Origin: Luscinia megarhynchos
Taxonomy: Eukaryota > Chordata > Aves > Passeriformes > Turdidae
Direction of reading: 5' to 3'
Length of the DNA stretch: 64,000 bases
NCBI GenBank assembly: GCA_034336665.1
Contig: CM067590.1
Location: 248,001 to 312,000 of the forward strand
Shown: in pieces, positions 29,863 through 64,000 of the stretch
Layout of the letters: every line of letters starts with the position of its first letter
Numbering within the stretch: the first letter of the stretch is position 1
Position numbers and translations under genes: made by a program
The notes under the pieces: model-generated
The model's input: only the letters and a program-made list of their open reading frames with translations
What the model was told of the DNA's origin: nothing
The model's database searches: none

Positions 29863-29937
29863 TCACAGCAGACTGGCCAGGCTGGTGGTGGGGCCGTTCT
29901 GGGCCTGGAATTGGACTGGGGGGGGTCCGTCCGTCCA
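29863..29937 (-). CDS. MAU2: MAU2 exon 19 and stop
   Basis: 24 codons and [27 protein letters not shown]. The acceptor is TTCCCTTGCAG. The C-terminal residues match the family. Confidence 0.97.
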   Translation of the reverse strand, partial: WTDGPPPVQFQAQNGPTTSLASLL

Positions 29938-32900
29938 CTGCAAGGGAAAAAAAACGGGATCAGAATCCCAGGAAAAATTCCCAGAAAATTTTGAAATCTC
30001 CCAAATTCCACAAATCCATTCCAAATTCACCCCAAATCCCACTGAAATCCACTCCAAAATTTCCCCCAAATTCCCACAGATTTCTACAAATTCCCCCCCA
30101 CTTCCACAAATCCAAGGCCACGTTACACAAAGGAACCCAGGGCTCCTTTTTCCCCTCTGGAATTCCAGGATTTCCCCATTTTCCCTCTGGAATTCCAGGA
30201 TTTCCCGATTTTTCCCTGTGGAATTCCAGGACTTCCCCACTTTTCCCCTCAGGATTTCCTCATTCTTCCCTGTGAAATTCCAAAATTTCCCCATTTTTCC
30301 CTCTGAAATTCTGAGATTTCCCCATTTTTTCCTCTGGAATTCCATGATTCCCTGTTTTTCCTTCTGGAATTCCATGATTCCCCATTTTTCACTCTGGAAT
30401 TCCACCATTTCCCCATTTTTCCTCAGGAATTCTGGGAATTCTGTGATTTACCCATTTTTCTCTCTGGAATTCCAGGAATTCTGGGATTTCCTGTTTTTCT
30501 CCTCTGGAATTCCAGGCCCTCTGGAATTCCGGGATTTCCTGTTTTCCCCTCTAGAATTCTGGGATTTCCCCATTTTTCCCTCTGGAATTCCAGGATTTCC
30601 CCATTTTTCCCTCCGGAATTCCTTGATTTTCCCATTTTTCCCTCCGGAATTCCTTGATTTCTTGTTTTCCCCCTCTGGAATTCTGGGAATTTCTTCATTT
30701 TTCCCTCTGGAATTCCAGGATTTTCCCGTTTTTCCCTCTGGAATTCTGGGAATTTCCCCATTTTTCCCTCTGGAACTCCAGGATTTTCCCCGTGGAATTC
30801 CAGGATTTTCCCATTTTTCCCTCAGGAATTCCGTGATTTCCTGTTTTTCCCCTCTGGAATTCCAGGAATTCTGGGATTTTCCCCATTTTTCCCTCTGGAA
30901 TTCCAGGATTTTCCCCGTGGAATTCCAGGATTTCCCTGTTTTTCCCTCTGGAATTCCCTGATTTCCCCATTTTTCCCTGTGGAATCCCAGGATTTCTGTG
31001 ATTTCCCATTTTTCCCCTCTGGAATTCCGTGATTTTCCATTTCCCCTCTGGAATTTCTGGAATTCCGTGATTTCCCCATTTCCCCTCTGGAATTCCGTGA
31101 TTTCCCATTTCCCCTCTGGAATTCCGTGATTTCCCATTTCCCCTCTGGAATTTCAGGAATTCTGTGATTTCCCGTTTCCCCTCTGGAATTCCTTGATTTC
31201 CCATTTTCCCCTCTGGAATTCCAGGAATTCTGTGATTTCCCATTTCCCCTCTGGAATTTCAGGAATTCTGTGATTTCCCGTTTCCCCTCTGGAATTCCTT
31301 GATTTCCCATTTTCCCCTCTGGAATTCCAGGAATTCTGTGATTTCCCATTTTCCCCTCTGGAATTTCAGGAATTACGTGATTTCCTGTTTCCCCTCTGGA
31401 ATTTCAGGAATTCCGTGATTTTCTGTTTCCCCTCTGGAATTCTGTGATTTCCCATTTCCCCTCTGGAATTTCAGGAATTCTGTGATTTTCTGTTTCCCCT
31501 CTGGAATTCTGTGATTTCCCATTTCCCCTCTGGAATTTCAGGAATTCCGTGATTTTCTGTTTCCCCTCTGGAATTCCGTGATTTCCCATTTCCCCTCTGG
31601 AATTTCAGGAATTCTGTGATTTCCCGTTTCCCCTCTGGAATTCCTTGATTTCCCATTTTCCCCTCTGGAATTCCAGGAATTCTGTGATTTCCCATTTCCC
31701 CTCTGGAATTTCAGGAATTCTGTGATTTCCCGTTTCCCCTCTGGAATTCCTTGATTTCCCATTTTCCCCTCTGGAATTCCAGGAATTCTGTGATTTCCCA
31801 TTTTCCCCTCTGGAATTTCAGGAATTCTGTGATTTCCCGTTTCCCCTCTGGAATTCCTTGATTTCCCATTTTCCCCTCTGGAATTTCAGGAATTACGTGA
31901 TTTCCTGTTTCCCCTCTGGAATTTCAGGAATTCTGTGATTTCCTGTTTCCCCTCTGGAATTCTGTGATTTCCCATTTTCCCCTCTGGAATATCAGGAATT
32001 CTGTGATTTCCTGTTTCCCCTCTGGAATTCCGTGATTTCCCGTTTCCCCTCTGGAATTTCAGGAATTCCGTGATTTCCCATTTTTCCCTCTGGAATTCCG
32101 TGATTTCCCATTTCCCCTCTGGAATTTCAGGAATTCTGTGATTTCCCATTTTCCCTCTGGAATTCCGTGATTTCCCGTTTCCCCTCTGGAATTCCAGGAA
32201 TTCTGTGATTTCCCATTTTCCCCTCTGGAATTTCAGGAATTCTGTGATTTCCCGTTTCCCCTCTGGAATTCCTTGATTTCCCATTTTCCCCTCTGGAATT
32301 CCAGGAATTCTGTGATTTCCCATTTTCCCCTCTGGAATTTCAGGAATTACGTGATTTCCCATTTTCCCCTCTGGAATTTCAGGAATTACGTGATTTCCTG
32401 TTTCCCCTCTGGAATTTCAGGAATTCCGTGATTTCCTGTTTCCCCTCTGGAATTCTGTGATTTCCCATTTCCCCTCTGGAATTTCAGGAATTCCGTGATT
32501 TTCTGTTTCCCCTCTGGAATTCCGTGATTTCCCTTTTCCCCTCTGGAATTTCAGGAATTCTGTGATTTCCAGTTTCCCCTCTGGAATTCCGTGATTTCCC
32601 ATTTTCCCCTCTGGAATTTCAGGAATTCCGTGATTTCCTGTTTCCCCTCTGGAATTTCAGGAATTCCGTGATTTTCTGTTTCCCCTCTGGAATTCCGTGA
32701 TTTCCTGTTTCCCCTCTGGAATTTCAGGAATTCTGTGATTTCCCATTTTCCCCTCTGGAATTCTGTGATTTCCTGTTTCCCCTCTGGAATTTCAGGAATT
32801 CTGTGATTTCCTGTTTCCCCTCTGGAATTCCGTGATTTCCCATTTTCCCCTCTGGAATTTCAGGAATTCTGTGATTTCCCATTTCCCCTCTGGAATTCCG

Positions 32901-35900
32901 TGATTTCCCATTTTCCCCTCTGGAATTTCAGGAATTCTGTGATTTCCCATTTCCCCTCTGGAATTTCAGGAATTCTGTGATTTCCCGTTTCCCCTCTGGA
33001 ATTCCTTGATTTCCCATTTTCCCCTCTGGAATTCCAGGAATTCTGTGATTTCCCATTTCCCCTCTGGAATTTCAGGAATTCACGTGATTTCCCATTTTCC
33101 CCTCTGGAATTTCAGGAATTCGTGATTTCCCTGTTTTCCCCTCTGGAATTTCAGGAATTCGATTTCTACCCTCTGGAATTCTGTGATTTCCCATTTTCCC
33201 CTCTGGAATATCAGGAATTCCATGATTTCCTGTTTCCCCTCTGGAATTCTGTGATTTCCCATTTTCCCCTCTGGAATTTCAGGAATTCCGTGATTTCCTG
33301 TTTCCCCTCTGGAATTCGTGATTTCCCTTTTCCCCTCTGGAATTTCAGGAATTCTGTGATTTCCCATTTCCCCTCTGGAATTCCGTGATTTCCCATTTTC
33401 CCCTCTGGAATTTCAGGAATTCCGTGATTTCCCGTTTCCCCTCTGGAATTTCAGGAATTCTGTGATTTCCCATTTTCCCCTCTGGAATTCTGTGATTTTC
33501 CATTTCCCCTCTGGAATTTCAGGAATTCATTGATTTCCCGTTTCCCCTCTGGAATTCCGTGATTTCCCATTTCCCCTCTGGAATTTCAGGAATTCCGTGA
33601 TTTCCCATTTTTCCCTCTGGAATTCCGTGATTTCCCGTTTCCCCTCTGGAATTCTGTGATTTCCCATTTCCCCTCTGGAATATCTGGAATTCCGTGATTT
33701 CCTGTTTCCCCTCTGGAATTCTGTGATTTCCTGTTTCCCCTCTGGAATTCCAGGAATTCTGTGATTTCCCATTTTTCCCTCTGGAATTCCGTGATTTCCC
33801 GTTTCCCCTCTGGAATTCTGTGATTTCCCATTTCCCCTCTGGAATTCCAGGAATTCCGTGATTTCCCATTTTTCCCTCTGGCATTCCGTGATTTCCCGTT
33901 TCCCCTCTGGAATTCGTGATTTCCCATTTCCCCTCTGGAATTTCAGGAATTCTGTGATTTCCCGTTTCCCCTCTGGAATTTCAGGAATTCCGTGAATTCC
34001 CATTTTCCCCTCTGGAATTCTGTGATTTCCCGTTTCCCCTCTGGAATTTCAGGAATTCTGTGATTTCCTGTTTCCCCTCTGGAATTTCAGGAATTCTGTG
34101 ATTCCCCATTTCCCCTCTGGAATTCTGTGATTTCCCGTTTCCCCTCTGGAATTTCAGGAATTCTGTGATTCCCCATTTCCCCTCTGGAATTCTGTGATTT
34201 CCCGTTTCCCCTCTGGAATTCTGTGATTTCCTGTTTCCCCTCTGGAATTTCAGGATTTCCGTGATTTCCCGTTTCCCCTCTGGCATTCCGTGATTTCCCG
34301 TTTCCCCTCTGGCACTCCGGGCAGGGGCTCTCACCGTGATCAGGTTGTGCTCGGGGAGGCTGCAGGCCTCGATGTGATCCTGCAGCAGCTGCTGCGAGAA
34401 GTTCTGGTGCATCTGCGCGGCCTCGTGGGCGTCCATGGCATTGCCACACGCCTTGTTCAGGTCTGCAAAAGCCAAAAAAATCCTGGAATTCCTCCCATTC
34501 CCACCTCTCAGCTCCTCTCATCCAAAAAAACACCCCTGGGTTTGGTTTCTGCACCAAATTCCCAAAGATTCCTTAGGATTGCTGGCAATATAATCCCAAA
34601 GTTGCCTCAATTTGAGGCAGAATCTGCCCCAAAATCTCCAAGGATTTTGCCTTGAATTCCTGGTAAAATCCCAGGGATTGGTTGGGTTGGGATTTTTTTG
34701 GGTTTTTCAGTTCCATGTGGTGAAGCTGAAGCAGGAAAAATCCTGGAATTTGTCCCATTCCGACCACTAAGCTCCTCTCATCCCAAAAAAAATCCCCTGG
34801 GTTTGGTTTCTGCACCAAATTCCCAAAGATTCCCTGCGATTGCAGGGATTAAAATCCCCAAATTCCCAAGGATTCCCTGGGATGGGAAGGAATCCAATCC
34901 TAAGATTCCTAAAGATTCCTAAAGATTGTAGGAAAATGGATTCCCAAGGATTCCTTGGTGTGGAAGGGAACAAAATTCCCAAGGATTCCTTAGAATTGCA
35001 GGGAATAAAATCCCAAAATCACCTCAATTTGAGGCAAAATCTGCCCCAAGGAGATCCCAGATTTTCCCCTGAATTCCTGGTAAAATTCCCCCTCTATTTT
35101 CCCAGGCCAATCCCAGATCCCAAATTCCCCCTGGAGCTGCACATTCCCACTCTCAAACCAGGACAATATCTGATCTCTGGAGCTGCACATTCCCACCCCC
35201 TATACTCTCAGGGATAATCTCCACATTTTCCCTGTCATTCCCATTTTTCCAGGATGATCCCAAATCCCAAATTCCTCCTGGAGCTGCACATTCCCATCTT
35301 TGGGATAATCCCCACTTTTTCCCCAGCATTCCCATTTTTCCAGGACAATCCCAAATTACCCCTGGAACTGCACATTCCCACTATCCCAGAGGCTCTTTCT
35401 CATTTTCCAGGATGATCCCAGATCCCAAATTACCTCAGAGCTGCACATTCCCAGTCCCCCACCCCCAGGGAATAATCTCCCTGTTTTCCCTGTAATTCCC
35501 AGTTTTCCAGGACAATTCCAGATCCCAAATTCCACCTGGAGCTGCACATTCTGAGCCTTGGGATCAGCTCCACATTTTCCCTGTAATTCCCATTTTTCCA
35601 ATCCCAGATCCCAAATTCCCCCTCGAGCTGCACATTCCCACCCTCTTACCCCTCAGGATAATCTCCATATTTTCCCTGTAATTCCCAATTTTTATGGATA
35701 ATCCCAGATCCCAATTCCACCTGGACCTGCACATCCCCACCCCCCCATTTTCCCAGTAATTCCCATTTTTCCAGGACGATTCCACATCCCTGGAGCTGCA
35801 CATTCCCACCTCTCACACTCTCAGGATCAACTCCACATTTTCCCTGTAATTCCCATTTTTCCAAGACAATCCCAGATCCCAAATTCCCCCTCGAGCTGCA

Positions 35901-38900
35901 CATTCCCACCCCCCACCCCCTCAGGATAATCTCCATATTTTCCCTGTAATTCCCAATTTTTATGGATAATCCCAGATCCCAATTCCCCCTGGACCTGCAC
36001 ATCCCCACCCCCCCATTTTCCCAGTAATTCCCATTTTTCCAGGACGATTCCAGATCTCTGGAGCTGCACATTCCCACCCCCCACACTCTCAGGGATAATC
36101 TCCATGTTTTCCCTGTAATTCCCGTTTTTTCCAGGCTGATCCCAGATCCTGAGTTATCCCAGAAGCTGCACATTCCCACCTCTCACACTCTCAGGATCAA
36201 CTCCACATTTTCCCTGTAATTCCTATTTTTCCAAGACAATCCCAGATCCCAAATTCGCCCCTGGAGCTGCACATCCCCACTCCCACATTTTCACAGTAAT
36301 TCCCATTTTTTTTTATAATCCCAGACCCCAAATTACCCCGGAGCAGGGCAGAGGACCAGAGCTGCACAGACATGTCAGGGATCTTGCTGGCCAGCTGCAT
36401 GGCTGGCACCACCATGTTATTGCTTTCCTAGGGAAAAAAAAATTGGAAAAAAGAAAAATTAGGATTTTAGGGGATTTTTGATGCCTTTCCAATATGGATG
36501 GACTGGGTAAAATGGGGAATTGGAGGTGGGAAATTGGGTTTTTGTTGCTCTGTTTAAGGCTTGGGGTTGAAGAGAGTAAAATTCCAAAATCCCAGAGATT
36601 CCATGGGATGGAAAGGAATAAAATCCTAAAATTCCCAAGAATTCCTCAGGATTGCAGGGGATAAAATCCCAAAATACCCAAGAAATCCTTGGTGTGGAAG
36701 GGAATAAAATCTCAAAATCCCAGAGATTCACTGGGATGGAAAGGAAACAGAGCCCAGGGATTCCCTGGGATTGAAAGGAATAAAATCCTAAAATTCCTTG
36801 GGATGGAAGGGAATAACCATCCCAAGAATTACTTAAAATTGTAGGGAATAAAATCCTAAAATTCCCATAGATTCCCTGGGACTATAGGGAATGAGATTCC
36901 CAGGAAAAACTTCAAAAATACCATTATTCCCACCCTTATCCTGATTTTCTTTGGGATTTTTTCTGGGAATGCCAATTCCAGGATTCCAGGGATTGGAGGG
37001 ATTTGGATGATCCACAGAGAAGAAAATCCCAATTTTTGACCCAACAGAACACCGAAAAAACACTAAAAAATCCCATTATTCCCACCCACAACCCGATTTT
37101 CTTCAGGATTTTTTGGGAGATTTTTGGAATTTTGGGGGAGGATTTTTCCTGGGAATGCCAATTCCAGGATCCCAAGGACTGGGAGGGATTTGGATGATCC
37201 ACAGGGAAGAAAATCCCAAATTTTGACCCAACAGAACACTGAGAAAACACTAAAAAATCCCATTATTCCCACCCTTATCCCAATTTTCTTTTGTATTTTC
37301 TTTGGAATTTTTTAGGGGTTTTTCTGGGAATGCCAATTCCAGGATTCTAGTGATTGGGAGGGATTTGGATGATCCAGAGAGAAGAAAATCCCAATTTCTG
37401 ATGCCACAGCACTGAAAAACCACTTAAAAAATCCAATTATTCCCACCCAAACCCGGATTTTCTTTGGGATTTTTTTGGGATTTTTTCCTAGGAATGCCAA
37501 TTCCAGGATCCCAAGGATTGGGAGGGATTTGGATGATCCAGAGGGAAGAAAATCCCTATTTCTGATGTGACAGCACTGAAAAAAACACTTAAAAAATCCA
37601 ATTATTCCCACCCATACCCCGATATTCTTTGGAATTTTTTTGGGATATTTTTTTTCTGGAAATGTGAATTCCAGGATTCCAGGGATTGGGAGGGATTTGG
37701 ATGATCCAGAGGGAAGAAAATCCCAATTTCTGATGTGACAGCACTAAAAAAACACTTTAAAAATCCGATTATTTCCGCTCGTATCCCGATTTTCTTTGGG
37801 ATTTTTTTCTGGGAATGCCAATTCCAGGATCCCAGGGATTGGGAGGATTTGGGAATTACCCTGTGGTTGCCCAGCACGTAGAAGATGTGGCCCAGCAGCA
37901 CCAGGGAGCAGGCGGTCAGGCGGTTCAGGTCCTCGGCGTTCGACATCTTCAGCGTCTCCCGCAAAAAACGCCTGGAAAAAAAACCAGGAAAAACTTGGGA
38001 TTTGAACATGATGGAATGTCCTGGGAGAATTCCTGCCTGGATGAAATGGCAGGAGGTGGGAGAAATTAATTTAAATGAAGGGAATTCTTGAGTTTTCTCT
38101 GGGAATTGGGGTGGAGTTGATTTCTCTGGGAAGGTGAAAAGAATGAGAGGGAGGAGATTCCCAAGGATTCTTTGGGATTGTTGGGAATAAAATCCCAAAA
38201 TTCTCAAGGATTCCTTGGGATTGAAGGGAATAAAATCCCAAAATTCCCTAGGAATTCAGGGAATGACAGGCCTGAGATTCCCAAATATTTTCACTGGAAC
38301 TGAAGGGAATAAAATGACCAAGATTCCCAAGGATTAAGAGTCCCAAATTTCCGAGGAGTCCTTGGGGTTCCAGGGGATAAAATTCCAAGATTCCCAATGA
38401 TTCCTTGGGATTGCAAGGAATAAAATCCTAAAATTCCCAAAGATTATTTGGGATTGAAGGGAATAACATCCCTAAAATTCCCAAGGGTTTTGCACGGGAA
38501 TAAGACTCCAAAATTCCCAAGGATTTCCAAGGACTGCAGGAAATAAAATCCCAAGGATTCCCTGGGATTGAGAGGAATAAAATCCCAAAATTCCCAAGGA
38601 TTCCTTGGGATTACAGGGAATAAGGTCCTAAAATTCCCAATGATTCTTTGGGATTGAGGGAATAAGATCCCAAAATTCCCAAGGATTGTAGAGAATAACA
38701 TTCCAAATCATTCCTTGGGATTACAGGGAATAAGACCCCAAGATTCCCAAGGATTTCCAAGGACTGCAGGAAATAAAAACCCAAGGATTCCCTGGGATTG
38801 AAGGAAATAAAATCCCAAAATTCAGGGAAAAAGATCTCAAAATTGCAGGGAATAACATCCCCAAAATTCCTTGGGATTACAGGGAATGATTCCCAAAGAT

Positions 38901-49195: not shown

Positions 49196-49522
49196 CTTGG
49201 GGCCGCCGACAACACCGCCGCGAGGCGTGGGGCACGACGGGAGTTGTAGTCCGATCGCCTCAGGCGCGGAGGGGAGATGGGAGTTGTAGTCCGCCCTTTC
49301 GCACAGGTAGGATGCAGGGCGAACCGGGGAACGACTGTAGCGGTGGATCCGCCAGAGCGGGGTGGTTCGGCCGCCCCCCGAGCGGGGCTCGGTGCTGCAG
49401 GAGAAGGAGGGGGAGCGGCGGGATGGCGCCCGTGAAGGACTACATCACCCAGGGGCGCTTGCGGCGGCGCGGCCCCTGCGCGGCGCGCCCGGCGCGGGGC
49501 ACGCTGGGACGGGGGCTCCAAA
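49196..49522. promoter_or_regulatory. Divergent MAU2/SUGP1 promoter
   Basis: Only 327 bp separate the two start codons, in a CpG-rich stretch extending into both first exons. Two identical GGGAGTTGTAGTCC elements (49239-49252 and 49279-49292), 40 bp apart, are the reverse complement of the ACTACAACTCCC motif known from bidirectional vertebrate promoters and ZNF143-type sites. No TATA box is seen. Transcription start sites cannot be placed from sequence alone. Confidence 0.85.
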
Positions 49523-49547
49523 ATGGACAACCACAGGGATGCGCCAG
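49423..49547 (+). other. Upstream ORF overlapping the SUGP1 start
   Basis: An ATG in fair context (CGGGATGGC) begins MAPVKDYITQGRLRRRGP in a frame different from SUGP1. Through the exon 1-2 junction it stays open across all of exon 2 and stops at a TGA in the first bases of exon 3 (CGATGA), about 100 codons in all. It matters only if transcription starts upstream of 49423. No homology recognised. Confidence 0.4.
49523..49547 (+). CDS. SUGP1: SUGP1 exon 1 (coding part)
   Basis: ATG in good context (CAAAATGGAC), eight codons MDNHRDAP plus one base, CAG|GTACGG donor. Human has four extra residues before the matching MDN. Confidence 0.88.
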
Positions 49548-52500: not shown

Positions 52501-55500
52501 AAAACCCCGATTTGGTGGAGCAGAGGGGGGAGAATCCCAATTTTGGTGGAGCAGAGGGGGGAGAATCCCAATTTTGGTGGAGCAGAGGGAGGAGAATCCC
52601 AATTTTGGTGGAGCAGAGGGAGGAGAATCCCAGTTTTGGTGGAGCAGAGGGAGGAGAATCCCAGTTTTGGTGGAGCAGAGGGAGGAGAATCCCAGTTTTG
52701 GTGGAGCAGAGAGAGAAATCCCAGTTTTGGTGGAGCAGAGGGAGAGAAATCCCAGTTTTGGTGGAGCAGAGGGAGGAAAATCCCAATTTTAATGAAGCAA
52801 GGAAGGAAAATCCCTGTTTTGGTGGAGCAGAAGGAGGAAAACCCCAGTTTTGGTGAATTAGGAATCAAAAAATTTCAATTTTAATGGAGCAGGGAAGGAA
52901 AATCCCAGTTTTAAGGGAGCAGGAAGGAGAATTGGGGGTTCTTTTGGGAATTCAATGGTAGGTGAGGAAAATGACCAATTCCAGGAGTTTTTCCTGTGCC
53001 AAGTCCCACATGGGAAGAGTCAGGAAGCTCCCAAATTCCAACTGCTGTTTTCCTGTCCCCACTCAGCGATGATGGCTCTGAGAACGAGGCCTCCGTGTCC
53101 AACAAGTTTGTGAATGATGGAAGTTTCCTGCAGCAATTCTTGAAGCTCCAGAAGGAAAAATCCAATGCTGGTAGGTCCTATCTTTCCCAATCTAAATCTG
53201 GGATACCCAGGATCTCTGTCCACTTCATTCTTCCCTCAGAAACTGCCTCAAATCCCTCAGACAATTCTGGGAATGCCCAAGCTCAAACCCTAGAATTCTC
53301 AGAAATATTTTTCTTTCATTGTCCCCTTAGAAACTGCCCCAAATCCCTTAGAAAACTCTAGAAATGCCCCAGCTCCAAACCTTGGGAAGAAGCAGCTGGA
53401 GCAGGCCCTAACCTGAATACTCCAGGCTTGGAGCCTTTTCCATCCCAAATCCAGAATTCCCAAGAATAATTTCTCTTCATTTTCTCCTCAGAAATTGCCC
53501 CAAATCCCTCAGACAACTCAGGGAATGCCCCAGCTCCAAACCTTGGGAAGAAGTGGTCAGGGACAGGCCTGGAGCCTCTCCCAGTCCAAACCCAAGATTT
53601 TAAGAATAATTTTTCTTCATTTTCTCCTCAGAAACTGCCCCAAATTCCCTCCAGCAATTCTGGGAATGCCCCAGCCCCAAACCCCGGGAAGAAGCTGCTG
53701 GGGAAGCGGCCGGGGCAGGCCCTGAGCCGGATGCTCCAGGCCCGGAGCCTCTCCCATCCCAAACCCAGCCCTGTCCTGAGCCGCCTCAGCGTCTTCCAGG
53801 CCCCAGATGAGGATGAGGAGGAGGATTACGAGCAGTGGTTGGAAATTAAAGGTCAGTGGCAGCTCCTGCTCTGGGGCTGGAGCTGGGAATGCCCATCCTG
53901 GGGTAGGGGATCAGTGGGGGCAGGATTCCCTCAGGAGCAGTAGGGAACGGGGTGGGGTTCAGGTCCTGGGACAGGGTCAGTTTGGGATAGGATTCCCTCA
54001 GTCCCAGTGGGAAGTTGGGTGGATTTGTCCTGGGATAGGAATCAGTTTGAGATAGGATTCCCTCAGGCTCAGTAGGGAATGGGATTAGGGTCAAGGCTCT
54101 TGGATAGAGGATCAGTGGGAGCAGGATTCCCTCAGGCCCAGTAGGGAATGGGTTGGGATTCAGGTCCTGGGATAGAGGGTCAGGTCCTGGAATAGGGGAT
54201 CAGTGGAGACAGGATTCCCTCAGGCTCAGTAGGGAGTGGGATTGGGGTTCAGATCCTGGGACAGGGGTCAGTTTGGGATAGGATTCCCTCAGTCCCAGTG
54301 AGAAGTTGGGAGGATTTGTCCTGGGATAGGAATCGGTTTGGGACAGGGATCATTTTGGGGTAGGATTCCCTCAGGCCCAGTAGGGAATGGGATTGGGGTT
54401 CAGGTCCTGGGATTTGGGTCAATTTGGGATAGGATTTTCTCAGTCCCAGTGGGAAGTTGGGTGGATTTATACTTGGACAAAGATCAGTTTGGGGTAGAAG
54501 ATCAGTTGGGAATAGGGTTCCCTCAGGCCTAGTAGGAAACGGAACATAGGTTCAGATCCTGGAATAGGGGATCAGTGGGGGCAGGATTCTCTCAGGCCCA
54601 GCAAGGAATGAAATGAAGGTTCAGGTCCTGGGACAGGGGTTCAGGGAAATTCTAGGGAAACCTTGGAGCTGTTTCCAGCGCCTAAAGGGGCTCCAGCAGA
54701 GCTGGAGAGGAATTTGGGACGAGGGATGGAGGGACAGGACACAAGGAATGGCTTCAAGCTGAAGGAAGGTGGATTTAGGTGAGATTTTGGGAAGGAATTC
54801 CTGGTTAGGAGGATGAGGAGGAGCTGGGCTGGAATTCCCAGAGCAGCTGTGGCTGCCCCTGGATCCCTGGAAGTGTCCATGGAGAAGTGGGAGAAAGGAA
54901 ATTCCAGGAAAACCTTGGAGCTGCTTCCAGAGCTAAAGGGGTTCCAGGAGAGGGGTTTAAGCTAAGGGCTGGAATTCCAGGACACGGGAATGGATTTAAA
55001 CTAGAAAAGGGGAATTTAGGTGGGATTTTGAGAACAAATTCCTGGCTGGGAGGGTGAGAAGAGGCTGGGCTGGAATTCCCAGAGCCCCTGGATCCCTGGA
55101 AGTGTTCAAGGTAAAGTTAGGACAGCAGAAAATGTAGCAATGGGATCATCTTTAAACCCACCCCACCCTAGACCCCAAATTCAGGTTTCTCCTGTAGGAA
55201 CCCTATGGGGGAAAAAAGCTCAGAACCCACCCCATGAAAAATCAAAAATGATGATATGAACACCTTTCTACAACTGCCTGCCCCATTTCATCCTTTCTCT
55301 TCCCATATTCCCATGTGTCTGCTCCGTGCTTTTCGGCAGTAATTCCCTGTTTCCCGTTTGTGGGGGAAGTTGAACCCCAAGTACTGACAGCCTCCTTAAA
55401 GTTTTGCCCCCAGAGGACGTGGAGACCCGGCAGGTGGTGGAAAAGCTGGCCAGGTTCGTGGCTGAGGGCGGCCCCGAGCTCGAGAAGGTCGCCATGGAGG

Positions 55501-58500
55501 ACTACAAGGATAATCCTGCTTTTGGGTGAGTTTGGGGTGGGTTTGTTCCCCAGGAAAAGGGGCGAGGGCAGCAGTGGGCTTTTGGGAAGTGTTCATTGTG
55601 AAAGGGGAAAGATTTGGGTTGTTGTTCCCTGAGGGGGAAAAGCTTGGCTTTGAGGGGAGGGAAATTTGGATTTGAGGGGGAAACGTTTGGGTTTGAGGAG
55701 GGGAAAGTTTGGGTTCATTGTTCTTTCCTAAAGGATGATAAGTTTGGGTTCGTTGTTCCTCCTGTGAGGGGGAAAACTTTGGGTTTGAGGGGAGGGAAAT
55801 TTGGATTTGAGGGGGAAACGTTTGGGTTTGAGGGAGGAAAGTTTGGGTTTGAGGTGGGGTAAAGTTTGGGGTTATTGTTCTGCCTGTGAGGATGGAAAAA
55901 TGTGGATTTGAGGGCTGGAAAAAGTTTGGGTTCATTGCTCTTTCCTGAGAGGAGAAAGTTTGGATTTGAGGTGGGAGAAATTTGGATTTGAGGGGTGGAA
56001 AAAGTTTGGATTCATTGTTCTTTCCTGAGGGGAAAAAGTTTGGATTTGAGGCGGGGGGAAAGTTTGGGTTCATTGTTGTTCCCAGAGGAAGAGAAGTCTG
56101 GGTTCATTGTTCTTCCTGTGAGGGGGAAAATTTGGAATTTGAGGAGGGGAAAATTTGGGTTCATTGTTCTTTCCTGAGGGGAAAAAGTTTGGGTTTGAGG
56201 GGGGAAAGGTTTGGTTTTGTTATTGGCTCTTCCCTGTGAGGATGGAAAAGTTTGGATTTGAGGAGTGGAAAAAGTTTGGGTTCATTGTTCTTCCTGTGAG
56301 GGGGAAAATTTGGAATTTGAGGAGGGGAAAAGTTTGGATTTGAGTGGGAGCAAAGTTTGGGTTCATTGTTCTTCCTGTGAGAGGCAAAATCTGGAATTTG
56401 AGGGGGAGGGAGGAAAGTTTGAGGATTTGAGGAAGGGGAAAAGTTTGGAATTGAGGGAGGGAAAAGTTTTTTTAATCCCAGCACTGGTGGGCACAGGATT
56501 CCTCCTTAATTTCCCTTCAAGCAAAAATTTGGATGCAAATCCTTGGATTGAAATTCCAAATTTTAATTCCATATTTTAGGTGCATTCTGAGTAATTTCTC
56601 CATTTTTCCATGTGGGAGTTGGAGCTGTTCCTATCCCAGAATATCAGTATTTGGATAATTATTCCTCCTTTTTTCCCTTTTTTCTAGGTTTTTGCATGAT
56701 AAGAACAGCAGAGAATTCCTTTACTACAGGAAGAAAGTGGCAGAAATAAGGAAAGAAAACCAAAATTCCCAGGCAACCTCTTCCCAAAAAGGTAATTCCC
56801 ACTAAAATCTGGGAAAGTTGGGATTTATTTGGGGTGGAAATTTTGGCTGCCTGGAAAGAAAATTCCTGACTGGAAAGAGAATCAAATCCTTGGAGTTTCC
56901 CAAAGGATTTCCTCTTGTAATTCAGCAGCAAATTCCTTCAATGTGGATAATTCCAGGAGGTTTAATCCTATGGAAAAATGCCTGAGACAGGGGAAAAGAT
57001 CCAAAATTCTTAATTGTGGATAATTCCAGATGCAGTAATCCTATGGAAAAGTGCCTGGCACATGGAAAAAATCCAGAATTTTTAATTATGGATAATTCCA
57101 GGTGGTTTAATCCTATGGAAAAGTGCCTGGCACGTGGAAAAAATCCAGAATTTTTAATTATGGATAATTCCAGGTGGTTTATTCCTATGGAAAAGTGCCT
57201 GGCACATGGAAAAAATCCAGAATTTTTAATTATGGATAATTCCAGGTGGTTTAATCCTATGGAAAAGTGCCTGGCACGTGGGAAAAAATCCAGAATTTTT
57301 AATTATGGATAATTCCAGGTGGTTTAATCCTATGGAAAAGTGCCTGGCACGTGGGAAAAAAATCCAGAATTTTTTAATTATGGATAATTCCAGGTGGTTT
57401 AATCCTATGGAAAAGTGCCTGGCACGTGGGAAAAAATCCAGAATTTTTAATTATGGATAATTCCAGGTGGTTTAATCCTATGGAAAAGTGCCTGGCACGT
57501 GGGAAAAAATCCAGAATTTTTAATTATGGATAATTCCAGGTGGTTTAATCCTATGGAAAAGTGCCTGGCACGTGGGAAAAAATCCAGAATTTTTAATTAT
57601 GGATAATTCCAGGTGGTTTAATCCTATGGAAAAGTGCCTGGCACGTGGGAAAAAATCCAGAATTTTTAATTATGGATAATTCCAGGTGGTTTAATCCTAT
57701 GGAAAAGTGCCTGGCACGTGGGGAAAAAATCCAGAATTTTTAATTATGGATAATTCCAGGTGGTTTAATCCTATGGAAAAGTGCCTGGCACGTGGGGAAA
57801 AAATCCAGAATTTTTAATTATGGATAATTCCAGGTGGTTTAAACCTATGGAAAAGTGCCTGGCATGTTGAAAATTTGGGGACCCAAAGCTGTTTTATCTA
57901 TCATCTCTTCAATCCCTGACTCCCAAACTCGGGTTTAACCTGAAGTTTTTATGCTTTAAATTGTTTTTGTACAATTTCTCCCCCTTTAAACCCAACTTTA
58001 GACCTCACTGGGGTCCTTAGGCCGGGTTAAGCCCCATCCCTACATCCCAAACTCAAGTTTAAACTGAAGTTTTTAAGTTATTTAACTATTTTTGTGCCAA
58101 TTTTCCCCCTTTAAACCCAAATTTAGACTTCACTGAGGTCCTTAGGCCCCATCCCTGCTCCCAAACTTGGGTCTAAACTAAAGCTTTTATACTACATAAC
58201 TGGTTTTATACCAATTCTTCCCCTTTAAGCCTGGCTTTAGGCCTTATTGTGGTTCTTAGGCCCCATCCCTGCTCCCCAAACTGAGGCTTAACCTGATTTT
58301 TTTTATGCTATTTAATTGTTTTGTACCACTTCTCCCTCTTTAAACCCAACTTTAGTCCTCACTGGTGGCCTTAGTCTGAGTTAGGCCCCATCTCAACTCC
58401 CCAAACTCAGGTTTAAACCTGAAGTTTTCATGCTCTTTAACTGTTTTTGTACCACTGCTCCCCATTTAAACCCAACTTTAGACCTCACTGGGGTCCTTAG

Positions 58501-61500
58501 GCGCCATCCCTGCTCCCAAACTTGGGTCTAAACTACAGCTTTTATACTACATAACTGGTTTTATACCAATTCTTCCCCTTTAAGCCTGGCTTTAGGCCTC
58601 ATTGTGATTCTTAGGCCCCATCCCTGCTCCCCAAACTCAGGCTTAACCTGATTTTTTTATATTATTTGACTGTTTTTGTACCAGTTCTCCCTCTTTAAAC
58701 CCAACTTTAGTCCTTACTGGTGTCCTTAGGTTGGGTTAAGCCCCATCCCTACTCCCCCAACCTGGGTTTGACCTGCTGCTTTGATTCTATTTAACTGTTT
58801 TTGTACCACTTCTCCCCCTTTAACCCCAGCTTTAGGCCTCACTGGTGTCCTTAGGCCGGGTTAGGCTGGGCTGGGGTGAGCTGGGCCCAGGACTAATCCC
58901 TGCCTAAAGTTTCCCCCCCAGCCGACCAGGAGACGCGGAACTCGGCCGAGAAGCTGGCGCAGTTCGTGGCTGCTGGGGGGCCCGAGGTGGAGGCCATCGC
59001 CCTGCAGAACAACAGGGAGAACCCTGCCTTCAGGTACTGGAATTCCTGCATTTGGGGCCGGGTTTACTGGGAATTCACAGGGGAAATTCACAGGGAAGTC
59101 GTGGGAATTTCCAGGGAAATTCACAGGAATCTCCGGGGAATTCTCAGGGAAATTCCAGGCAGTTCGCAGGGAATTCTCAGGGAATTTGCAAAGTATTTCC
59201 GGGGGAATTTCCAGGGGAATTTCCAGGGAAATTCACAGGAATCTCCAGGAAATTTCCAGGGAAATTCACAGGAATCTCCAGGAAATTTCCAGGGAAATTC
59301 ACAGGGAAATTCCAGGCAATTCACAGGGAGTTCACAAAGTATTTCCAGGGGAATTTCCAGGAAATTTCCAGGGAAATTCCGGGGACATCTCCAGGGAATT
59401 TCCAGGAAATCTCTGGGGAAATTAACAGGAATCTCCAGGAAATATCCAGGGAATTTCCAGGGCATCTCCAGGAAATCCCTAGGAAATTCACAGGGAAAGT
59501 CGTGGGAATTCTGAGATTGACATTTTGGAGTGGTGAGAATTGAAGGGCTCAGATCTGGGGTGCAGAGGGGGCTGAGTTGGGAGCTTTGCCCTGGAGCAGC
59601 AGGGAGATCCCTGCATTCAGGTCCAGGGAATTCCTGATGTTTTGGGGTTTTTTTCCTAGGGAATTCACAGGGAAAGTCATGGGAATTCTGGGTTTGTTGG
59701 GAAATGGTGCCAAGACTTGAGGTTTCGGGTGCAGAGGAATCAGCACATTCCTGATTTTTGGGGCTGTTTTTTCCTTCATGGAATTGTGTTTGTCGCACCA
59801 AAACTATTCCCTGATCCCCGTGGAGGCTGCACTGACTGCAGGGACACACGGGATGGTGCTGGAGAGCTGGGAACGCCCTGGGAATGTTCTAAATATTCCA
59901 GGAGGGGAAAAAACCTTGCTGGGTCCCAGCCCTGGAGGGCTGGGAATGTTCTGGGAATTGCAGAAAGGAAAATTCCTGAGGAAACTGTGCTGGATCTCAG
60001 TTCTCAGTGGAGCTAGGAATGCTCTGGGCATTCCAGGCTGGAATTCCTGCCTGAGGATCCCAGCTCTGAGTAGGGTTGCAGAGCTGGGAATGCTCTGGGA
60101 ATTGCAGAAAGGATAATTCCTGAGGAAGCTGTGCTGGATCTCAGTTCTGAGTGGAGCTGGGAATGGTCTGGGCATTCCAGACAGGAATTCCACAGCTGGA
60201 TCCCAGCTCTGAGTAGAGCTGGAGAACCAGGAATGCTCTGGGAATTACAGAAAGGAGAATTCATGGGAAAACTGTGCTGTATCCCAGCTCTAAGTGGAGC
60301 TGGAGAGCCAGGAATGCTCTGGGAATTGCAGGCAGGAATTCCATGGCTGGATCCCAGTTCTGTGTAGGATTGCAGAGCTGGGAATTTTCTGGGAATTGCA
60401 GAAATGAAAATTTCTGAGGAAACTGTGCTGGATCCCAGCCCTGGAGAGCTGGGACTTGCAGGTAGGGAATTGTTCTGGGAATTGCAGGCAGGAATTCCAC
60501 AACTGGATCCCAGCTCTGAGTGGAGCTGGAAAGCTGGGAATCTTCTGGGAATTACTGAAAGGAAAATTCCCTAGGAAACTGTGCTGGATCCCAGCCCTGG
60601 AGAGCTGGGAGTGCTCTGGGAATTCTCTGTGCATTCCAGGCCGGAATTCCCGGCTGAGGGTCACGTTGTTCGCAGGTTCCTGTACGAGCCCCACAGCAAA
60701 GGGCACCGCTATTACCGCCAGAAACTCGAGGAGTTCCGCCGGGCGCGGGGCACCGCCCCTTTTCCCGGGAATCCCCCTTTTCCCGGGAATCCCCCTTTTC
60801 CCGGGAATCCCCCTTTTCCCGGGAATCCTCCTTTTCCCGGAGAATCCGGCCTCAAAAGGAAAAGCAGTCCCGAGGCCTCTCCCTCCCCGCTGTGCTTCCC
60901 CCCTCTCCCCGTTCCCTCCCCCTCTCCCTCTCCCTCTCCCCGTTCCCTCCCCTCTCCCTCTCCCTCTCCCCGTTCCCTCCCCTCTCCCTCTCCCCGTTCC
61001 CCTCCCGCCTCCTCCGGCCATTCCTGTTCCCTCTCCCGTTATTCCCGCTGCTCTTCCCATCCCCTCAGCCTCTCCCTCCCCATCCTCATCCTCCACCTCC
61101 CCTCTGGATCAACCAGCTGCGATCCCAAATCCCACCCCGATCCCAAACCCAAATCCTGCCACGACCCCGAACCCATCGCTGACCCCAAACCCCGCCCCGA
61201 TCCCAAACCCCGCCCCGGGCAGCACCAAAAAGAAGAGGAAGAGTCGCTGGGGGCCAGAGGAGGAGAAGGTGGAGCTGCCCCTGCCACAGCTGGTGCAGCA
61301 GCTGGATTCTCCTTCTCCCCTCTCAGGTGAGTGGGGTTGAGTTTTCCTGGGAATTTTGGGTGGTTTTGGATTTCCTGAGTTGGGCATGGATCCATTTTCC
61401 CTAGGAATTTCTGCTGTCAGTCCCATTTTTTCCCCCTGTGGTTTTATTTTCCCATGGTGGTTTATTTTCCCTTCTCTTGGTTTTTATTTTCCCTTCACTC

Positions 61501-63837
61501 CATGGTAATTGCAAACAGAATTCCCTTCTTTTTTTTTTGTCTTTCCCCACCCTTTTATCCTATTTTATCCCTCTCTGAACCCAGGATCACCTTTTCCATC
61601 CTGGAAATATCCAATTCCATGTTTTATCTGAGCCAACAGCCACAAGAATTCCAAGGAAGGAGCTTCCTGAAACTGGAATTTCCCTCAGAACTGCAGCTTT
61701 ATTCTGCCCCTGCACTTATTTTCCTGGCTTTTTTTGGGGGGATAAAATTGCTGTGGAGACTCCTGGGAATTCAGAAATTGCTGCTGGATAATTGATTCCC
61801 ACTTTTTGGGCTGGTTTGGTCTCACCTGAGCAGAAAATTCCTAAGGAAAAAATTATTTTTGTGGGTCCTGGGAGTCTCCACACAAAATCTGGGATCAAGA
61901 TTAATTCCCTTTTTTTTTTGGGGCTGGTTTGGCCTCACCTGAGGAGGGAATTCCTATGGAAAAAAAACGGAATTTTAAAGCAGATTTTGGGAATTCTCAG
62001 AGCTGGCTAGGGAGGAGCTGCTTCCTGCTGCTTTTCCCACTCCTGCGATTCCCAAATCCCTCCAGATGAATCCTAAAATTCTGAAATCCCTTAAATTTCC
62101 TGGGAATGGCAACACCCCATCCCTGGAATCCCCCACAGGAATAAGGGAAGGAGGAATGGGATGATCCTAAGATCCTTCCAGAGCTAGGATTTGTGAGATT
62201 TTTTTGTGTGGTTTTTTGTGGATTTATGTTTTTTTTTCTTGATCTCCCAGATTTTTCCCTGTTTTTTTTCCTGCAGTTCAGGACCTGAAGGGTCTGGGGT
62301 ACGAGAAGGGCAAACCTGTGGGGTTGGTGGGAGTCACCGAGCTCTCCGAGGCCCAGAAGAAGCAGCTGAAGGAGCAGCAGGAGGTGATTCCCAAAAAATC
62401 CTCCCCCCCCAGAATTCCCTCCTGTGGGAATGACAAAGATTTTCCATCATGGAATCCCTGGGAACAGCAGGAATAGCAGAGGGTTTGGGGGATAAGGAGC
62501 TCTACTAAAATCCCAAATCCTAAAGTCCTCAAATCCCAATGACTTTTCCAGCCCTAAAATCCCAAATCCCAAAGTCCTAAATTCCCAAATCCCAAAGAAA
62601 CTTTCCAGGCCTAAAATCCCAATTCTCAAAGGAGCATTTTCCCCTGGGATTTTCTGGGATGAATCCCATGTTTCCCTGTTCCCCTGGGATGAATCCTGTT
62701 TTTCCCTATTCCCCTGGGATTTTCTGGGACAAGATCCCATTTTTCCCAAGCTGAATCCCATTTTTCCCTGTTCCCTGGGATTCCTGGGCTAAACCCCACT
62801 TTTCCCAGAACAAATTCCATTTTTCCTGGACTGAATCCCGTTTTTCCTGAGACAAATCCCATGTTTACTAGGACAAATCCCACTTTTCCTGGACTGAATC
62901 CCAAGTTTCCTGTGCTGAATCAAATTTTTCCCAGGACAAATCCTGTGTTTCCCAGACTGAACCCCAAGTTTTCCAGGACAAATCCCAATTTTCCTGGTCA
63001 GAATTTACCAGCCTGAATCCCATTTTTCCTGGCCCAAATCCCATTATTCCCGTTCTGAACCCCGATTTTCCCATTCTGACCCCATTTTCCCCATTTCAAT
63101 CCCCATTTTCCCCATTCTGACCCAATTTTCCCGTTCTGAACCCCATTTTTCCTCCCCCAAATCCCGTTTTCCCCATTCTGACCCCCATATCTCCATTCTA
63201 AACCCCGTTTTCCCCCATTCTGACCCCCCAAATCTCCATTCTAAACCCCATTTTCCCGTCCTGACCCCCGTTTTCCCGTCCTGACCCCCAAATCTCCATT
63301 CTAAACCCCATTTTCCCCATCCCGACCCCCCCGTTTTCCCCATTCTGACCCCCAAATCTCCATTCTAAACCCCATTTTCCCCGTCCTGACCCCCCGTTTT
63401 CCCCATTCCTGACCCCCAAATCTCCATTCTAAACCCCATTTTCCCCATCCTGACCCCCGTTTTCCCCATTCTGACCCCCCCCCCAAATCTCCATTCTAAA
63501 CCCCATTTTCCCCGGCCCTGACCCCCCGTTTTCCCATTCTGACCCCCAAATCTCCATTCTAAACCCCATTTTCCCCGTCCTGACCCCCGTTTTCCCCAAT
63601 CTGACCCCCATTTCCCCCATTCTAACCCCATTTTCCCCATCCTGCCCGTTTTCCCCCAGATGCAGCAGATGTATGACATGATCATGAAGCACAAGCAGGC
63701 GATGCAGGAGATGCAGCTGCTGTGGGAGCGCGCGCTGCAGCAGCACCAGCACGGCTACGACAGCGACGAGGAGGTGGACAGCGAGCTGGGCACCTGGGAG
63801 CACCGCCTGCGGCGCATGGAGATGGACAAAACCCGGG
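49523..63837 (+). CDS. SUGP1: SUGP1, SURP and G-patch splicing factor (coding exons 1-10, 3' end missing)
   Basis: SUGP1 is a nuclear splicing factor that works with U2 snRNP components (SF3B1) and, through its G-patch, a DEAH helicase in branch-site recognition. Exons read on the plus strand: 49523-49547, 52194-52365, 53067-53170 (or 53174), about 53655-53851, 55414-55525, 56688-56791, 58922-59033, 60676-61326, 62277-62383, 63660-63837. The order fits the family: MDN start, [18 protein letters not shown], acidic [19 protein letters not shown]1 (exons 5-6), SURP2 (exons 7-8), a Pro-rich linker with a [12 protein letters not shown] nuclear signal, and the [16 protein letters not shown] region. 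The G-patch lies beyond the right edge. Oddities: an uncertain exon 3-4 junction and an extra base in exon 8. Confidence 0.96.
49715..52193. repeat. SUGP1 intron 1 array derived from the exon 2 acceptor
   Basis: About 40-45 units near 57 bp: CCCTTTTTCCCTCAGGGAAT, GAGCCCCTGGATTTGGGATG, ATCCCTGTTAATTCC. Early units (49755-50060) still show exon 2 wording, for example GAAGTCGGACTGCTGGTTCG against exon 2 GAAGGCGAGCCGGTGGTTCG. The last unit is the real acceptor. Confidence 0.9.
52194..52365 (+). CDS. SUGP1: SUGP1 exon 2
   Basis: Follows CCCTTTTCCCTCAG. Reads [40 protein letters not shown] …, matching the family. The donor is a weaker AGA|GTACGA. Its first 30 bases are the template-like end of the intron 1 array. 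Confidence 0.93.
52440..52930. repeat. 38-bp GGAGCAGAGGGAGGAGAATC array, SUGP1 intron 2
   Basis: About 12 units of TTTTGGTGGAGCAGAGGGAG then GAGAATCCCAG, starting about 75 bp after exon 2. The unit resembles the exon 2 segment TGGAGCAGCAGG…GCAGAACTCCC. Confidence 0.9.
53067..53170 (+). CDS. SUGP1: SUGP1 exon 3
   Basis: Reads [35 protein letters not shown], as in the family. The donor CTG|GTAGGT is the better-scoring site by eye, but it leaves a phase that does not fit exon 4. Use of GTAG|GTCC at 53174 with the acceptor before 53655 restores the frame. Confidence 0.88.
53232..53640 (+). repeat. Three decayed copies of the SUGP1 exon 4 start
   Basis: Copies begin at about 53240, 53331 and 53492, before the real exon at 53632/53655. 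Each has (T/C)AGAAACTGCC-like sequence, CCAAATCCCT(C/T)AG, then AATGCCCCAGCTCC; two continue into AAACCTTGGGAAGAAG. The real exon has CAAATTCCCTCCAG, AATGCCCCAGCCCC and AAACCCCGGGAAGAAG. Confidence 0.85.
53655..53851 (+). CDS. SUGP1: SUGP1 exon 4 (start uncertain)
   Basis: Open through [20 protein letters not shown] … [24 protein letters not shown], ending at AAAG|GTCAGT. The 3' half is well conserved. The acceptor could be CTCCAG before 53655 or CTCAG before 53632. Three similar acceptor copies precede it. Confidence 0.85.
53930..54620. repeat. About 75-bp array in SUGP1 intron 4
   Basis: Units GGATCAGTGGGGGCAGGATT, CCCTCAGGCCCAGTAGGGAA, GGTTCAGGTCCTGGGATAG, about 9 copies. It begins within 90 bp of the exon 4 donor. 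Confidence 0.85.
54640..55115 (+). mobile_element. Two CR1-like LINE fragments in tandem
   Basis: Both carry CTTGGAGCTG(T/C)TTCCAG and a TTTAGGT(G)GGATTTTG-like segment, then TTCCTGG(T/C)…GGGCTGGAATTCCCAGAG and CCCTGGATCCCTGGAAGTGT. This is the order of the CR1 3' third (…GGACAAGAGGAAATGGCCTCAAG…). Plus orientation. Confidence 0.65.
55414..55525 (+). CDS. SUGP1: SUGP1 exon 5, SURP1 first half
   Basis: Reads [38 protein letters not shown], the start of SURP domain 1. Donor GTGAGT. Confidence 0.97.
55530..56480. repeat. GGGAAAGTTTGGGTTTGAGG array, SUGP1 intron 5
   Basis: Units of about 25-50 bp, GTTTGGGTTCATTGTTCTTC, CTGTGAGGGGGAAAATTTGG, ATTTGAGGGG, about 25 copies. It starts directly after the exon 5 donor. 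Confidence 0.85.
56688..56791 (+). CDS. SUGP1: SUGP1 exon 6, SURP1 second half
   Basis: Reads [34 protein letters not shown], completing SURP1. Acceptor TTTTTTCTAG, donor GTAATT. Confidence 0.97.
56935..57870. repeat. 72-75 bp homogeneous array, SUGP1 intron 6
   Basis: About 13 units: TGGATAATTCCAGGTGGTTT, AATCCTATGGAAAAGTGCCT, GGCACGTGGGAAAAAATCCA, GAATTTTTAATTA. Inner units are almost identical apart from G/A run length. Nine have CACGTG, two CACATG; the end units are diverged. Confidence 0.95.
57890..58870. repeat. About 120-bp array, SUGP1 intron 6
   Basis: About 8 units: CCTTAGGCCCCATCCCTGCT, CCCAAACTCAGGTTTAACCT, TATTTAACTGTTTTTGTACC, CTTTAAACCCAACTTTAG. It ends about 50 bp before the exon 7 acceptor. 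Confidence 0.92.
58922..59033 (+). CDS. SUGP1: SUGP1 exon 7, SURP2 first half
   Basis: Reads [37 protein letters not shown], the start of SURP domain 2. Acceptor CCCCCCAG, donor GTACTG. Confidence 0.97.
59060..59515. repeat. GGGAAATTCACAGGAATCTCC array, SUGP1 intron 7
   Basis: About 15-36 bp units GGGAAATTCACAGGAATCTC and CAGGAAATTTCCAGGGAA, many copies, starting about 30 bp after the exon 7 donor. Confidence 0.88.
59820..60655. repeat. About 100-bp array before SUGP1 exon 8
   Basis: About 8 units: GAGCTGGGAATGCTCTGGGA, ATTGCAGAAAGGAAAATTCC, AAACTGTGCTGGATCCCAG, with GCATTCCAGGCTGGAATTCC alternates. The last unit runs to about 20 bp from the exon 8 acceptor. Confidence 0.88.
60676..61326 (+). 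CDS. SUGP1: SUGP1 exon 8, SURP2 end, Pro-rich linker, with a frame break
   Basis: Begins [26 protein letters not shown] (end of SURP2). Then come five FPGNPP repeats coded by an 18-bp minisatellite (about 60756-60840), [11 protein letters not shown], a Pro/Ser-rich tract, and [20 protein letters not shown] … LSG. The first and last parts are in frames offset by one base. The first CCCTCCCC unit has five C (60918-60922) where the next has four, so one extra C accounts for the shift. Confidence 0.9.
61330..62270. other. SUGP1 intron 8, mostly unique
   Basis: No gene. A pair of similar segments (GGGCTGGTTTGG(T/C)CTCACCTGAG) at about 61808 and 61921 suggests one tandem duplication. T-rich runs precede exon 9. 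Confidence 0.5.
62277..62383 (+). CDS. SUGP1: SUGP1 exon 9
   Basis: Reads [36 protein letters not shown], near identical to mammals. Donor GTGATT, phase 0. Confidence 0.97.
62620..63655. repeat. Arrays forming the 3' end of SUGP1 intron 9
   Basis: First TTTTCCTGGACTGAATCCCA units (62620-63030), then 41-bp CCCCAAATCTCCATTCTAAA plus CCCCATTTTCCCC units (63040-63655). The last unit supplies the pyrimidine tract and CCCCCAG acceptor of exon 10. Confidence 0.88.
63660..63837 (+). CDS. SUGP1: SUGP1 exon 10 (last in window)
   Basis: Reads [59 protein letters not shown], phase 1 donor GTGAGG. Twenty bases of this exon are repeated exactly in the next intron. Confidence 0.97.
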
Positions 63838-64000
63838 GTGAGGGGGGCTGGGGAATTCCAGAGGGGAATTCCACCCCTGCTCTATGGGCTGGGCACCTGG
63901 GAGCACCAGGGATCAATTCCAGAGAGGGAATTCCACCCCTGTTCTATGGGCTGAGCACCTGGGAGCACCAGGGATCATTTCCAGAGAGGGAATTCCATCC
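63838..64000. repeat. SUGP1 exon 10-derived array, cut by window edge
   Basis: A 62-bp unit repeats at 63888 and 63950. Each includes GCTG(G/A)GCACCTGGGAGCACC. Exon 10 has the same 20 bases at 63785-63804, exact for the first copy. The array continues past the window. Confidence 0.93.

Follow-up and report, generated by a model that had tools for sequence, protein, structure and literature searches.

Introns of three neighbouring genes of the nightingale Luscinia megarhynchos, SUGP1, MAU2 and GATAD2A, carry partial copies of the edges of their own exons. The copies lie in the adjacent intron, have the same orientation as the exon, and lose identity to it with distance. This arrangement is very probably exon stuttering in a songbird, produced by local tandem duplications that recurred within an unstable region. 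Exon stuttering (or sequence stuttering) was described from chicken dot chromosomes in February 2026 (PMC12954441), so that the pattern, which a first-pass annotation of this DNA did not know as described, is not new in kind. The main text of that paper names neither MAU2 nor SUGP1, and no second paper on either term was found in the literature searched.

The window is a stretch of 64,000 nucleotides (G000:C31:248001-312000) from contig CM067590.1, here C31, of a 1.09 Gb genome. C31 comprises 6,086,834 bases (6.1 Mb), and the window lies in its array-rich end. Exon models were based on human proteins and GT/AG borders; exons of MAU2, SUGP1 and GATAD2A are labelled M, S and G. Two of the genes have the following extents in the window.

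29863..49036, minus strand: MAU2, 18 coding exons M1-M18 (49036 down to 29863) with GT/AG borders; the M1 start is approximate.
52194..63837, plus strand: SUGP1, 10 coding exons S2-S11 modelled in the window.

MAU2 and SUGP1 are arranged head to head, and SUGP1 exons S12-S15 lie beyond the window end. GATAD2A (minus strand) follows MAU2, with its first coding exon (1469-1717) in the window and the remainder upstream. A SUGP1 protein query gave 52 matches, of which songbirds were closest: Ficedula albicollis (99% over 80% of the query), Turdus rufiventris (94% over 81%) and Zosterops borbonicus (88% over 99%). A segment at 49334-49393 matches Zosterops protein P0001 and is probably the first SUGP1 coding exon. 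The modelled exons are in frame save at three places. In M4 (46104-46199) a single extra T, probably an assembly error, breaks the frame of an otherwise intact gene. The extra base at the start of S4 is likely an error of the same kind, since Ficedula protein P0002 reads the S4 start without it. The third is a frame change between S8 and S9, where no clear intron was found in the window sequence. Within S8 (60756-60994) an 18-bp coding repeat, in frame and made of PFPGNP units, precedes repeats of 30 bp. Exon order is as in the human proteins, and, the S8/S9 border aside, the modelled exons showed no intron at a new position; all exon-edge copies sit in existing introns.

When the exon-masked window was searched with 28 exons, all seven matches at E ≤ 1e-4 fell in the adjacent intron on the same strand. 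Looser cut-offs gave 7 adjacent matches of 9 (1e-3) and 8 of 14 (0.01). The sources are SUGP1 exons 4, 7 and 11 and MAU2 exon 6.

53632..53768, plus strand: S4 source, the first 137 nt of SUGP1 exon 4 (exon-only match).
53240..53594, plus strand: S4 acceptor-edge copies in SUGP1 intron 3, at 53240-53290, 53331-53454, and 53492-53553 with 53564-53594.
58950..59120, plus strand: S7 source, the last 84 nt of SUGP1 exon 7 with donor and intron (alignment).
59542..59705, plus strand: S7 donor-edge copy, 126/174 columns identical, about 590 bp downstream.
45008..45033, minus strand: M6 source, the last 25-26 nt or so of MAU2 exon 6 (exon-only match).
44533..44675, minus strand: single copy of the M6 donor edge and intron, with an 11-nt gap that deletes the copied donor.
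63785..63837, plus strand: S11 source, the last 53 nt of SUGP1 exon 11 (exon 10 of the first-pass annotation).
63854..63997, plus strand: S11 62-bp array with an exact 20-nt exon match at 63888-63907 and again at 63950-63969.

Each of the three S4 copies covers at most the first 137 nt of the exon and keeps the acceptor AG. The copy at 53492 offers the only in-frame start of SUGP1 exon 4 as sequenced, an unlikely choice, as Ficedula P0002 places the exon start at 53632. In the S7 copy the donor GTACTG has become GTCCAG, with GT kept. Over 59001-59696, exon 7 with its copy and intron 7 is matched in a non-coding frame by P0031, a predicted protein of Zonotrichia albicollis, and the exon 7 duplication may be old. 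The 20-nt match at 63888, noticed earlier, is genuine and belongs to a 53-nt edge that is copied again past the window; the 62-bp units inside the window have no donor, and the full 53-nt copies follow the window end. A mean-score test over copies supported M6, S4 and S7. It did not support the S11, M4, M17 and S4 donors or the M17, S8 and S11 acceptors, and M12, M15, M16 and S2 were marginal or unsupported. The local-duplication fraction is 0.89 in the S3-S4 and S7-S8 introns, 0.90 in the stub after S11 and 0.27 in M6-M7.

The extended set adds 60 kb to either end of the window (184 kb in all, with 42 exons from the three genes) and shows the same adjacency. At E ≤ 1e-6 all 43 matches are adjacent and same-strand, from exons G2, G6, G7, G10, S4, S11 and S14; at E ≤ 1e-4 this holds for 48 of 54, and M6 and S7 are added. 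Non-adjacent matches number 6 of 54 at 1e-4 and 17 of 75 at 1e-3, many of them from the repetitive exon S9. Copies of at least 30 nt are most numerous for S14 (16), followed by G7 (9), S11 (7) and G6 (6). The stretch C31:312001-332000, where the S14 and S11 3'-edge copies occupy the following introns, is far richer than the window. Donor-edge copies lie beside G6 and acceptor-edge copies beside G7 in the intron shared by these exons. G8 was flagged as locally duplicated, yet had no exon-only match in the 184-kb search.

For nine exons (S4, S7, M6, S11, S14, G2, G6, G7 and G10), matches at E ≤ 1e-4 in the adjacent intron and on the same strand refute the idea that junctions and arrays are alike by chance, through shared low-complexity composition and the splice-like motifs frequent in these repeats. 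As a general account chance is very improbable. What favours it is that splice-like sites are equally common antisense, and that several arrays beside junctions resemble the exon little or not at all.

49806..52205, plus strand: SUGP1 intron 1 array of 57-bp units, about 42 in number, containing 44 acceptor-like sites.
39994..41028, minus strand: MAU2 intron 12 array of 103-bp units, starting 34 nt past the M12 donor; exon homology weak.
36905..37852, minus strand: MAU2 intron 15 array of 168-bp units, starting 8 nt past the M15 donor; exon homology unsupported.
35094..36344, minus strand: MAU2 intron 16 array of 100/268-bp units, reaching 8 nt into M16; exon homology weak.
30144..34321, minus strand: MAU2 intron 17 array of 38/68/106-bp units, 14 nt away from M17 and taking up the greater part of the intron; exon homology unsupported.

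For these five, alignment of the array consensus with the exon edge was tested against dinucleotide shuffles, giving p values of 0.048 (S2), 0.035 (M12), 0.23 (M15), 0.034 (M16) and 0.47 (M17). Among 27 other exon edges, 3, 1, 10, 2 and 15, respectively, reached as high a score, as did 38, 23, 73, 37 and 81% of random non-exon pieces of the window. The arrays of S2, M12 and M16 may be decayed exon-edge arrays, their homology being marginal; M15 and M17 show none. When array consensuses were compared with exons over 164 array-exon pairs, the top pairs involved M12, S6 and S11, and most were unconvincing. The first-pass annotation had listed six arrays as homologous to their junctions, at SUGP1 exons 2, 4 and 10 and MAU2 exons 13, 16 and 17 (the last three probably M12 and two of M15, M16 and M17). 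All six are real repeats adjoining junctions. Homology holds by exon-only matches for SUGP1 exons 4 and 10 (S11); for the other four it is not established by the shuffle and random-piece controls, in which random pieces of the window match the consensuses of S2, M12, M15, M16 and M17 equally well in 23-81% of draws. The donor edges of S7 and M6 were absent from that list.

The same annotation held that the exon edge itself seeds each array, which the data do not support. There are 24 local repeat families in the window. Six include at least 8 exon bases, namely M6, M16 (8 nt), S2 (12 nt), S4, S7 and S11, where S11 is counted through its 20-nt match and M18 (2 nt) is left out. Random placement of units, with unit lengths entered by hand, predicts 3.0 such families (P(≥6) = 0.07); for at least 20 exon nt the count is 4 against 2.6 expected (P = 0.26). 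The number of families touching exons is thus compatible with random breakpoints. Across the three genes, local duplication affects 15 of 77 intron ends and 76% of interior points, which include part of the stretch upstream of the GATAD2A first coding exon. Over the 20 intron nt nearest the exon its value is 0.25 on the donor side and 0.22 on the acceptor side; it rises to about 0.65 at 201-400 nt and to 0.76 in the interior. Such low duplication at borders indicates that exon edges are passengers of the process and not its general seeds, although selection against border damage could hide an initiation bias.

An unlikely alternative keeps the exon edge as a specific initiating site, through R-loops, paused polymerase or splice-site composition, from which arrays start and spread inward. 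In its favour, at 10 of the 15 duplicated intron ends the duplication also covers 20 exon nt (the equivalent for interior points is 99%), copies closer to the exon look younger, and six families with at least 8 exon bases are twice the 3.0 expected. Against it stand the fall of duplication toward exons, the 18 of 24 families with zero or fewer than 8 exon bases, and arrays that are equally dense outside genes (0.57 over window positions 1-29500).

The instability is regional and includes intergenic DNA. The local-duplication fraction is 0.22-0.82 in 21 10-kb blocks of the first 2.01 Mb of C31, sampled contiguously in part over 188-372 kb and at 1.0, 1.5 and 2.0 Mb, so that only three blocks fall between 0.37 and 2.0 Mb. 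Between 2.5 and 6.0 Mb of C31, eight blocks give 0-0.15, and six blocks of contigs C2, C5, C10, C15, C20 and C25 give 0-0.11. GC in the window is 0.60 for exons of genes and 0.45 for non-exon sequence. Over the 21 blocks the duplication fraction declines with GC (rho -0.59, p = 0.005, from values transcribed by hand), a result that matters for the view that stuttering is caused by high GC or G-quadruplexes. G-quadruplex motifs number 98 in the window, 32 of them in 29863-64000, as a count without a control. In chicken these genes are on chromosome 28, which does not rank among the dot chromosomes.

Under repeated local duplication, breakpoints would occur anywhere in introns and intergenic DNA. 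A duplicated segment that chanced to span an exon border would leave a copy of the edge, splice site included, at the margin of the intron. We propose that the gene remains functional through retention of the outermost splice site, the one beside the intact exon. Selection would presumably hold the exon edge constant; the copies would decay and be shifted inward by later duplications, their position suggesting their order of birth. The molecular step may be slippage, unequal exchange or conversion.

Identity to the exon drops with distance in six of six arrays (rho -0.38 to -0.88; combined permutation p = 0.0025), and the trend alone is below 0.05 only in G6. This is as expected for copies born at the border; gene conversion by the exon would yield the same trend. 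In five of the six arrays copies are nearer to the exon than to one another. The copy-exon and copy-copy values are 0.85 and 0.80 for S11, 0.87 and 0.81 for S14, 0.92 and 0.89 for G6, 0.89 and 0.84 for G7, and 0.79 and 0.71 for G2. The exception is S4 (0.57 vs 0.66), where the closer mutual similarity suggests a single capture followed by amplification. In SUGP1, Ficedula albicollis predicted protein P0010 matches the intron-3 copies at window 53068-53466 (87% over 133 residues) and, together with exon 2, the final units of the intron-1 array (75% over 106 residues). Since P0010 reads through both arrays, they predate the split from Ficedula.

It is quite possible, if tentative, that exon borders work as conveyor belts: with the edge held unchanged by selection, each border-spanning duplication may deposit a fresh copy at the intron end, and older ones may be pushed inward and decay. 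The G6-G7 intron, with six strong donor-edge copies on one side and nine acceptor-edge copies on the other, may then hold two opposed belts. If so, an exon-edge array is an ordered, datable record of local duplication history. With exon edges as fixed points of reference, the arrays allow measurement of how fast and in what order tandem duplications occur.

In chicken, stuttering affects 190 of 5,572 dot-chromosome introns, and 190 of the 236 affected introns are on dot chromosomes; more than 90% of source sequences lie within 1 base of the exon border, and population length variation is a main feature (PMC12954441). When the three nightingale genes were screened at the published thresholds, leaving out the multi-source filter and manual review, 39 proximal matches and no distal ones resulted, in 7 of 39 introns (MAU2 1/17, SUGP1 3/13, GATAD2A 3/9). 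The distance from source to border is at most 1 nt for 21 of the 39 matches and at most 10 nt for 36, the rest being at 21, 30 and 33 nt; some GATAD2A ends are approximate and G2 includes intron bases. In the window alone, a bit score of at least 42.1 yields three proximal matches (one M6, two S4) and 0 distal ones, with S11 (40.1) and S7 (26.3) below. The maximum against shuffled introns was 32.2 for the window (20 shuffles) and 18.3 for the three genes (10 shuffles).

Both systems have partial copies of coding exon edges, donor or acceptor included, which form imperfect direct tandem repeats within the adjacent intron. Both also have introns packed with local repeats of tens to hundreds of bases, and far more proximal than distal matches (PMC12954441). 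The present case differs in its songbird setting, its 6.1 Mb contig with non-exon GC of 0.45 and its occurrence in 7 of 39 introns of three genes, and it is known from one assembly. The arrays here are common to Ficedula, whereas clusters in the paper often differ between close species, and a keyword search of its text found no discussion of a distance trend. The songbird setting, the arrays common to Ficedula and the distance trend are the additions to the published phenomenon. A newly described form of genome instability is thereby carried from chicken to a songbird region with introns that are not GC-rich.

Three other systems show partial likeness, as far as the portions of each paper used here go. 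Avian hidden genes (PMC6792250) also have bird introns made of tandem motifs, but are extremely GC-rich and G-quadruplex-linked, and exon-edge copies were not found in those portions. Internal tandem repeats of human segmental duplications (PMC2812944) likewise place minisatellite units at exon-intron borders and change the structure of genes; there the variation is among recent paralogues, with effects on exons and novel introns, while here single-copy genes and existing introns only are involved. In intron gain by tandem genomic duplication (PMC4974935) the duplicated tandem also carries splice signals, whereas here existing introns lengthen and no new position was found in the modelled exons. 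For annotation there is a practical warning, in that Ficedula P0010 extends straight into these arrays.

As the first-pass annotation had stated, the tandem unit at some borders takes in both coding and intron sequence across the junction and leaves additional donors or acceptors. Among E ≤ 1e-4 matches that reach the border (excluding 3 of S11, 2 of S14, 4 of G2, 1 of G7 and 1 of S4), GT is kept in 3/4 copies of S11, 12/13 of S14, 4/6 of G6, 1/1 of S7 and 0/1 of M6, and AG in 8/8 of G7 and 3/3 of S4. A systematic erasure of copied donors, hinted at by M6, the 62-bp S11 units and the M16 units, was considered and rejected, as S11, S14 and G6 mostly keep theirs. Splice-like rows as such are equally common antisense: the 27 window introns have 130 acceptor-like sites sense vs 135 antisense, and 59 donor-like sites vs 45.

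SUGP1 is a splicing factor; GATAD2A and MAU2 are not. One might suppose that copies are kept for a function, for example as decoy splice sites regulating SUGP1 splicing. Many copies do retain strong sites, and the intron-3 and intron-1 arrays are common to Ficedula albicollis. However, GATAD2A and MAU2 are affected as well, the site is lost in the M6 copy and two G6 copies, sense and antisense counts are similar, and copies decay with distance, all of which leaves a functional role with a negligible chance of being right. At 9347-10144, on the strand opposite GATAD2A, a 15-bp array (ACAGGTGAGACCAGC-like) forms a long row of donor-like sites; such rows therefore arise without exons.
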